64,000 bases of DNA, from the NCBI GenBank assembly GCA_900316665.1, contig ONDV01000017.1:1-64000 (forward strand), given 5' to 3'. The position numbers and the translations under genes are program-made. The notes below the pieces were generated by a model that searched no databases, had not been told where the DNA came from, and was given only the letters and a program-made list of their open reading frames with translations. Below are positions 1 through 54,499 of the stretch, one piece after another (within the stretch, counting starts at the first letter, position 1; every line of letters begins with the position of its first letter). The stretch comes from an uncultured Lachnospiraceae bacterium (lineage in GTDB: Bacteria > Bacillota > Clostridia > Lachnospirales > Lachnospiraceae).

Positions 1-124
1 GCTAAAAAGCGCGTGCGAGCAAACAGAAAAACACAACTTGTGAGCCACCACTGTGACATCTCTTGGCAAAAAGCGAATGAATCCTTGCAACGAAGATTTT
101 CATTATTTATGTGGGAAGTTTCAG
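1..124 (-). repeat. Palindromic intergenic repeat, copy A (cut by window edge)
   Basis: Bases 1-118 are almost identical to the reverse complement of 53831-53946 and share most of their sequence with the minus strand of 25214-25300. The copy runs off the left edge of the window, so only one arm is visible. It ends with a conserved tail (about 102-124) that is also present beside copy B, and it stops 5 nt before the stop codon end of gpsA, so it lies directly downstream of that gene. An open reading frame through it has no ribosome binding site and is treated as spurious. The repeat relation is seen directly; its mobility or function is not known. Confidence 0.85.
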
Positions 125-25199: not shown

Positions 25200-25213
25200 T
25201 ATATGGATCGTTT

Positions 25214-25433
25214 TCGTCGCAAGGATTCATTTGCTTTTTGCTTACAGATGTCACAGTGGTGGCTCACAAGTTGTGTTTTTCTGTTTGCTCGCACGCGCTT
25301 ATTAGCGGCTCTCTGACAAAAGCGCGCAGAAATGCTTGAATTAACAATGTTCGCCACCATCTGTGCATCTGTAAGCAAGCTATAATGAATCCCTTGCGAC
25401 GAAAATTTTCATTATTGATGTGGGAAGTTTCAG
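25214..25433. repeat. Palindromic intergenic repeat, copy B
   Basis: The copy begins with TCGTCGCAAGGATTCATT (25214) and ends with the complement of nearly the same sequence at about 25402, so it has terminal inverted repeats of roughly 60 nt (TTACAGATG, GTGGC and GTGTT blocks also match between arms). Bases 25403-25433 are the conserved tail seen in copy A. It fills the gap between the convergent ClC and nuclease genes; the nuclease stop codon lies against the tail. Compared with copies A and C the tail stands at the other arm, as if the core were inverted. Confidence 0.85.
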
Positions 25434-26294
25434 TCAGTTATATTCAGGTCCTGAACTTGACCCGTCCGCATAGTTAATTTCTATGCCTGGCTGGGCATTA
25501 TAGCAAAAGACACAAAACTTGATTCCGCCACCGCCGTCCTCTACTGATTCCGCCTCCATCAGCACTCCGCGCGAAAGCAGGTCGTTGCCTGTGAATATAG
25601 GCGTCACCCGGTATAAAACATGATTTCCTGTGGACTTTACATATGAAGCAATGCGGCTTTCATAAGGCTCCATGCCCTCCACATTCATATATCTTGTTCC
25701 CGTGATAAGGTTAGACTCATTCGCGTTTTCTCCAGTCAGCTGATAGCCGATAAGATGACAGCGGTTATATAAATAATGCCCCTCAACATTTTTATATTTC
25801 ACGGTATGCCAACCTGTCGGCTTTATCATACCTATCTCGCCGCGGGGACCTGTCGGCATAAGGTCTTTCCCTACCGAAGCAATGCAGGACGTGCAGCGGT
25901 TCAGGCTGTCATGATTTCCATAAGTCTCATATGAAGTACGAGCCTTGGAAAGATCCTCGCTGTTAAAATACGGATCGCCGTTATTAATTGTAACCGCCGG
26001 ACTTCCTGAAAAGGCCGGAAGACTCTCAAACTGAAAGGAGGTCTGAGCGCCTGGATCTATACCTTTCTGATCGGTATCTCCGGAATTCCCTGAAGTGCTG
26101 TTTGCATCTGCCGTAATGGATGTATTATTTTCAGTTCCGGAATTATCCCTGTTCTCTGTCTCAACAGATGAAATCTGAGAAGTCCCGGTATTGTCTGCTT
26201 TATCAGGCTTACCGTTTCCAGGATGAAATAGGGCTGCAATTATTAAAAGAGCGATCAGACCGGTCCCGCCTGTAAGACCGCGTCTCTTCTTCAT
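25434..26294 (-). CDS. Secreted DNA/RNA non-specific endonuclease
   Basis: A 286-residue exported nuclease. The N-terminus has a basic segment and hydrophobic helix (GTGLIALLIIAALFHPGNG), then a Ser/Thr/Asn-rich linker to about residue 95. The catalytic domain has NRCHLIGYQLTGE, which is the DRGH type motif with the catalytic His, followed by the metal-binding Asn in ESNLITGTRYMN and HVLYRVTPIF. It resembles streptococcal DNases of the Spd/Sda group. The ATG overlaps the sirtuin stop by 4 nt (ATGA), so it is the last gene of the galactoside operon. A transmembrane anchor rather than a cleaved signal is possible. Confidence 0.87.
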   Translation of the reverse strand: MKKRRGLTGGTGLIALLIIAALFHPGNGKPDKADNTGTSQISSVETENRDNSGTENNTSITADANSTSGNSGDTDQKGIDPGAQTSFQFESLPAFSGSPAVTINNGDPYFNSEDLSKARTSYETYGNHDSLNRCTSCIASVGKDLMPTGPRGEIGMIKPTGWHTVKYKNVEGHYLYNRCHLIGYQLTGENANESNLITGTRYMNVEGMEPYESRIASYVKSTGNHVLYRVTPIFTGNDLLSRGVLMEAESVEDGGGGIKFCVFCYNAQPGIEINYADGSSSGPEYN

Positions 26295-53800: not shown

Positions 53801-53830
53801 AATGCAAGGTATGACCGGAAAGATAATTAT

Positions 53831-54128
53831 TTCCCACATCAATAATGAAATCTTCGTTGCAAGGATTCATTCGCTTTTTGCCAAGAGATGTCACAGTGGT
53901 GGCTCACAAGTTGTGTTTTTCTGTTTGCTCGCACGCGCTTTTTAGCAAAAGCGCGCAGAAATGCTTTAAAATAAATTTTGCAGTTGCAAAATATTTCAAG
54001 GAAGCATTTCTGCTTGAACGTTTGTCAACCGAGCCGCAGCTAGCGTGCTCGCTCACAACGAAAAACACAATGCTCGCCACCATCTGTGCATCTCATGGCT
54101 TCAATGAATCCTTGCAACGAAGATGATC
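53831..54128. repeat. Palindromic intergenic repeat, copy C (complete, nested inverted repeats)
   Basis: Two arms of about 90 nt (53831-53946 and about 54037-54128) are imperfect inverted copies: both carry TTGCAAGGATTCATT, the GAGATG, GTGGC and GTGTTTTTC blocks. Inside them lie CAGAAATGCTT (53956-53966) with its inverted copy AAGCATTTCTG (54002-54012), and inside these ATTTTGCA-GT-TGCAAAAT (53975-53992). The left end carries the TTCCCACAT tail. It sits between the DAHP synthase leader and the gene at 54164. One open frame of 93 codons runs through it and is not considered real. Confidence 0.87.
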
Positions 54129-54130
54129 AA

Positions 54131-54155
54131 TGTAACATCACTTCGTGATGTTACA
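54131..54155. terminator. Perfect hairpin after the gene at 54164
   Basis: TGTAACATCAC-TTC-GTGATGTTACA is a perfect 11-bp inverted repeat with a three-base loop, 8 nt after the stop codon. It has no strong U-run on either side, so terminator function is uncertain. It resembles the tandem hairpins at 27076-27125 in form. Confidence 0.5.
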
Positions 54156-54163
54156 TTAAATAA

Positions 54164-54499
54164 TTATCTCTCGAATGCAAAATATACGATAAGAGCATCA
54201 TCTGCCCTGTGGATCCAGACTCCGCAGTCGCCGTCTCCGTCAGCTTCTATTCCTCTGATATCGTATCTGCCATATTCGTGACCGGCTCTCTCGGTCTTTC
54301 CATGTTCTGCCGCGGAACCGTAATCTTTCTTCTGAAAGCGCCGAATTATATCTATGATATCAGACATTCTTCCGTCCCCATCCAGAAAAACCGTCCTTAC
54401 ACCGCTTGAAAGATATACATTGTCGCCGTCCACATTATCATACTGCGATGTGCCGAAACCCTTCTTTTTTACAGTTTCTTTCAATTCATCAAGTCTCAT
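54164..54499 (-). CDS. Hypothetical protein, 111 residues
   Basis: No family recognised. Acidic and basic residues alternate without a membrane segment; the text RTVFLDGDGRMSDIIDIIRRF and the C-terminal YDIRGIEADGDGDCGVWIHRADDALIVYFAFER suggest a small alpha/beta fold. AAAGGGG lies upstream of the ATG, similar to the ribosome binding site of the genes at 30985 and 29538. It follows the HD-GYP gene by 24 nt in the same direction. Confidence 0.65.
   Translation of the reverse strand: MRLDELKETVKKKGFGTSQYDNVDGDNVYLSSGVRTVFLDGDGRMSDIIDIIRRFQKKDYGSAAEHGKTERAGHEYGRYDIRGIEADGDGDCGVWIHRADDALIVYFAFER

Follow-up and report, generated by a model that had tools for sequence, protein, structure and literature searches.

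Nested-palindrome repeats beside gene ends in an uncultured Lachnospiraceae bacterium are very probably MITEs with ISPepr1-type (IS4) ends

Results and discussion

Anatomy of the three copies in the window

What are the long, nested palindromes that lie beside genes at three places in this 64,000-nucleotide stretch of an uncultured Lachnospiraceae genome (the window; contig ONDV01000017.1, positions 1 to 64,000), and how do they spread? An earlier note, made from the sequence alone, had described them as a family of three copies without a recognised name, and had suggested either a non-autonomous mobile element (MITE-like) or a stable RNA hairpin. All three copies are present where that note placed them. 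Coordinates below are those of the window and are unstranded unless a strand is named.

Copy C is a nearly full element with worn ends. It had been given as a complete copy at 53831-54128; the palindrome is confirmed, but the extent is too short, as a perfect 13-bp hairpin module, AATGTAACATCAC-TTC-GTGATGTTACATT (54129-54157), belongs to it too, and 53831-54159 describes the copy better. The left end keeps TTCCCACAT, and the right end stops at ...TGTTACATTAA. The copy is flanked by the 8-bp repeat ATAATTAT, on the left at 53823-53830, where it is a possible target duplication, and on the right at 54160-54167, where it includes the TAA stop (54164-54166) of a minus-strand ORF at 54164-54499. 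Because ATAATTAT is itself palindromic, it is ambiguous as a target duplication of copy C. Outer arm 1 (53850-53938, plus strand) is opposed by its inverted partner, outer arm 2 (54042-54124, minus strand), which differs from it in sequence. The outermost 22 bp (53850-53871 and 54103-54124) are 100% complementary, and pairing is imperfect inward of this base, with further paired arms at 53911-53939 and 54042-54070. Inner palindromes are nested at 53934-54013, namely CGCGCTTTT (53934/53947), GCAGAAATGCTT (53955/54002) and ATTTTGCA (53975/53985). The nesting had been described correctly, but the perfect repeats are of 12, 9 and 8 bp rather than 11 and 8 bp. The predicted fold of copy C, computed over a 341-nt stretch, reaches -149.8 kcal/mol (z -15.5) on the plus strand and -161.7 kcal/mol (z -13.4) on the minus strand.

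Copy B (25200-25433) has lost its left terminus and retains the right one, ATGTGGGAAGTTTCAG, at 25418-25433. Abutting this end is a 7-bp target, TCAGTTA (25434-25440; TAACTGA on the gene's strand), which holds the TGA stop (25434-25436) of a nuclease-like gene at 25434-26294. Copy A (1-124, minus strand) consists of one arm and one terminus (109-124) and is cut by the contig end, because the window begins at base 1 of the contig. The adjoining 7-bp target position, 125-131, contains the TGA stop (129-131) of a glycerol-3-phosphate dehydrogenase gene. The early observation that one end lies beside a stop codon was accurate, the stops at copies A and B lying inside the 7-bp target.

Termini and copy number

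The element is bounded by a 16-bp terminal inverted repeat, with CTAAAACTTCCCACAT at one end and the same sequence inverted at the other. The tail TTCCCACAT that had been noticed in all three copies is indeed shared sequence, and is actually the inner part of this terminal repeat. In the 2.07-Mb draft assembly of the host, a 13-bp part of the terminus, AAACTTCCCACAT, occurs exactly 84 times against 0 occurrences of a reversed-pattern control, so that the terminal inverted repeats are common to all copies and the family is far larger than the three members first counted. The repeat has at least 95 blastn matches in its own genome (40 of the 131 candidates scored) and none in 60 relatives, eight of them from the same genus. 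Clustering of termini and arms yields some 74 loci at which a terminus is exact; copies split across two contig ends enter this count twice. Assembled contigs often terminate in a copy, and runs of N lie inside several assembled copies; since draft contigs repeatedly stop inside the element, both its copy number and its partner genes are under-counted. This MITE group interrupts draft assemblies and lies at the ends of genes. Copies that are complete, having both termini, are 142-359 bp long, foldable from end to end and built of shared modules in varying combinations. Their interior has no detectable coding content, and their length is too short for a transposase gene, as in a MITE. The 23-bp core of the hairpin module, GTAACATCAC-N3-GTGATGTTAC, occurs 57 times in the genome with up to 2 mismatches allowed.

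Target site and neighbouring genes

Direct repeats of at least 6 bp, mostly 7 bp, abut both ends in 18 of the 31 complete elements pooled from three genomes, compared with an expectation of 1.2 (maximum 5) for shuffled flanks; a clear duplication is absent from the other 13. A logo built from 84 flanks in the own genome gives the motif TWANTWA, which is exactly 7 wide (T.82, W, A.68, N, T.69, W, A.85), with no comparable signal outside it. At copy C, the same-genus genomes are about 70% identical and not collinear, and synteny demonstrated no empty site there.

The copies are intergenic, with gene starts (39) and gene ends (42) about equally frequent beside them, and the genes that start near an element are usually more distant from it. 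An element is faced by 49 gene ends at a distance of up to 300 nt; in 11 of these the target contains the stop codon, and in 8 the stop codon directly abuts the terminus. Stop codons fit the TWANTWA target, which explains the position beside a stop codon without any special function.

These data bear on whether the repeat is instead a structured non-coding RNA or a 3'-end hairpin serving the cell, for example as a terminator or mRNA stabiliser, with copies now placed at many genes. Such a role would be in keeping with the very strong folds predicted for both strands, with intergenic copies that are often directly behind stop codons, and with co-variation between the arms (see below). The target duplications and the 7-bp motif, however, show transposition, no Rfam family matches the element above the gathering score, no terminator was found in it, and the copies have no preferred orientation with respect to genes (p = 0.80), with starts and ends flanked alike. 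We therefore consider an RNA of this kind unlikely. Of the stable RNA hairpin proposed earlier, the predicted fold holds up, but an RNA function finds no counterpart in an Rfam family, a terminator or an orientation bias. By analogy with NEMIS, for which RNase III processing has been proposed (PMC2229807), some effect of the hairpin in RNA is possible.

Partner insertion sequences

Four other Lachnospiraceae genera carry the terminal 13-mer in multiple copies, and an exact 17-mer, ACTAAAACTTCCCACAT, is found in at least 98 stretches, mostly from rumen and gut Lachnospiraceae. Complete insertion sequences with both ends around one transposase gene are present in Tb.RUG.456 (L239), RUG006 (L291), UBA4364 (L292) and RUG13128 (L294), and INlla16 (L293) has a transposase gene with one such end. 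Autonomous partners with the same ends thus exist in other Lachnospiraceae, and three of these genomes (RUG006, UBA4364 and RUG13128) also carry the MITEs. The partner transposases score 532-586 bits against the NCBIfam model NF049925 (IS4 transposase; cut-off 250 bits). They contain the YREK motif in the form Y-GK-R-WxI-E-(V/I)FFK(T/S)C-K, with D-D-E spacings of 96-105 and 111-112, and six transposases satisfy Y(2)R(3)E(6)K and D(60-110)D(100-150)E, as defined for IS4.

By definition, members of the ISPepr1 subgroup of the IS4 family are 1500-1600 bp long, have ends of the form YT-AA-YTT---A and lie in AT-rich targets between direct repeats of 7-8 bp (De Palmenaer et al. 2008, PMC2266710). 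The ends of the partner insertion sequences satisfy this consensus, and their lengths of 1585-1591 bp (L239, L292 and L158), 1572 bp (L294) and, with a 25-bp end duplication, 1610 bp (L291) agree with the subgroup size. Direct repeats of 7-8 bp are found for the MITEs; for a partner insertion sequence itself the target repeat was read in one imperfect case, with 6 of 7 positions matching in L239. In ends, duplication length and AT preference, our elements match the published ISPepr1 subgroup. The window element resembles it in terminal consensus, in its 7-8-bp direct repeats, in its AT-rich targets and in having partners of 1.55-1.6 kb with a YREK transposase, and differs in having no transposase gene. 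The earlier note recognised no named family, but the termini can be assigned to the ISPepr1 subgroup. The nearest named match is ISTeha4 (IS4 family, Tetragenococcus), the transposase of which is 38-39% identical to that of the partners. Its ends begin CTAAAACTT and diverge after nine bases, and ISTeha4, unlike the window element, is autonomous.

No ISPepr1-type transposase was found in the assembly of the own genome or of three other MITE-bearing genomes. Repeats are frequently lost from draft assemblies of this kind, so the missing transposase is weak evidence, and the element in the own genome would depend on a transposase that is unassembled, lost or supplied from elsewhere. A weak transposase match in the own genome (contig C4) was set aside, as the sequence looks like an unrelated IS1380-type gene. 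In RUG006 the right end of the insertion sequence is duplicated in tandem (25 bp; L291, 2977-3026), and small hairpins, for example CACACCGAAAAGGTGTG, lie right behind the ends of the insertion sequences in L239, L291, L292 and L294.

The MITE reading, one of the two early suggestions, is supported by termini common to the copies, by 7-bp duplications and a 7-bp motif, and by autonomous insertion sequences that share these ends. We put the probability at about 90% that the repeats are MITEs with ISPepr1-type (IS4) ends that are mobilised in trans and carry a nested-palindrome interior. The assignment names the transposase type, the ends and the target rule of a MITE group that extends across many rumen and gut Lachnospiraceae.

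Comparison with other palindromic repeats and a model for transposition

NEMIS/Correia, RUP and ERIC are comparable: they too lie between genes, are short and non-coding, have terminal inverted repeats, duplicate their target and give stem-loop transcripts. These and other bacterial MITEs mostly have TA dinucleotide termini (PMC2229807). The present element has other ends, a 7-bp TWANTWA target and a nested mosaic interior. Its high copy number, intergenic position and palindromes arranged in mosaic modules also recall REP/BIME/REPIN sequences, which would owe their movement to a RAYT (Y1 single-strand) transposase; REP/BIME/REPIN elements, however, have neither the 7-bp target duplication nor long terminal inverted repeats matching the ends of a DDE insertion sequence, and with both features present here we regard such an origin as extremely unlikely. 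A MITE is a known kind of element, and what is new is the palindromic mosaic interior around the shared ends. In a literature consisting mostly of papers available without subscription, we found no palindromic MITE of the ISPepr1 subgroup and no such MITEs in Lachnospiraceae.

Building on the observed anatomy and target, a transposition step that follows from IS4 biology would have an IS4-family DDE transposase recognise the 16-bp CTAAAACTTCCCACAT ends in trans, excise the element with its mosaic of nested palindromes and insert it into a 7-bp palindromic, AT-rich TWANTWA target, which would be duplicated. As the targets often include a stop codon and the duplication keeps the stop intact, many copies would be harmless just behind genes. 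Hairpin formation may be what maintains the palindromic interior, most likely in RNA that is cut or blocked during read-through, so that an insertion would carry a lower cost. Another possibility is that the palindromes are neutral and arise by copying errors at hairpins.

Palindromic interiors

Several other genomes have elements with these ends but with interiors that are unrelated and strongly palindromic, and one may ask why one kind of transposon end should be combined again and again with palindromes of different sequence. Core fold z-scores, computed with the ends excluded, are -2.5 to -25 in most elements across genomes, and the strongest predicted folds, for interiors of up to about 330 bp, range from -114 to -217 kcal/mol. 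One AB2028 element whose end resembles an insertion-sequence end is not palindromic, nor are the short elements (62-99 bp), among which a palindrome of 90 bp in RUG231 is the one exception. One interior family is common to RGIG2452, RUG12161, UBA3720 and RUG006, and the interiors of the own genome, RGIG2871, RUG231, SRR873603 and RUG13128 have no detectable similarity to others in the compared set. The sole same-genus element with these ends (G006 contig 151, 5392-5722; L321) is a 331-bp near-palindrome with a predicted fold of -204.6 kcal/mol over about 360 nt. Two further elements with these ends, at L242 7320-7638 (319 bp, core z -25) and, in RUG231, at L200 5281-5370 (90 bp), are near-perfect palindromes.

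Within the own genome the two arms co-vary at one site, with T/T in nine copies, C/C in six and mixed pairs in none (15 of 15, p = 0.0002, for copies that share ancestry and hence are not independent events), and at a second site four copies combine TTACA with TTACA. A change must have taken place in each of the two arms, and either pairing was selected or one arm was copied from the other. The interiors may be neutral products of template switching, in which one transposon end was duplicated in inverted orientation; the near-perfect palindromes L200, L242 and the G006 element, like the similarity of the arms within one copy, point in this direction. Several genomes, however, have mosaic interiors, differing arms and extra nested hairpins, for which one duplication is insufficient, and we see template switching as a substantial possibility at somewhat less than even odds. 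Selection on the hairpin itself would instead mean that ISPepr1-type ends repeatedly gain long nested-palindrome interiors in separate lineages, a convergent 'hairpin MITE' strategy in which the hairpin brings the ends together for transposition or silences insertions as an RNase III-type substrate; we put this forward tentatively, as possible but rather doubtful. The interior palindromes could also be mobile in their own right and invade ISPepr1-ended shells time and again, as the 57 occurrences of the 23-bp module, its position at the element edge or in the loop, and its tandem arrays might suggest. Wherever sequence was read, however, elements with these ends enclose the module, and an independent unit is, in our judgement, quite improbable.

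In the RGIG2871 elements (L130-L142) the interior contains GTCATCCTGAGTGAAACGAAGGATC and GATTCTTCGCTGCGCTCAGAATGAC, which we take to resemble a repeat known from many bacterial genomes. The tandem arrays of the 23-bp hairpin module have a spacing of 73-83 bp; short arrays spaced at 79-83 bp are located on own-genome contigs at C45:14350-14538, C70:15073-15259 and C6:12597-12777, the last of these directly behind an element terminus.
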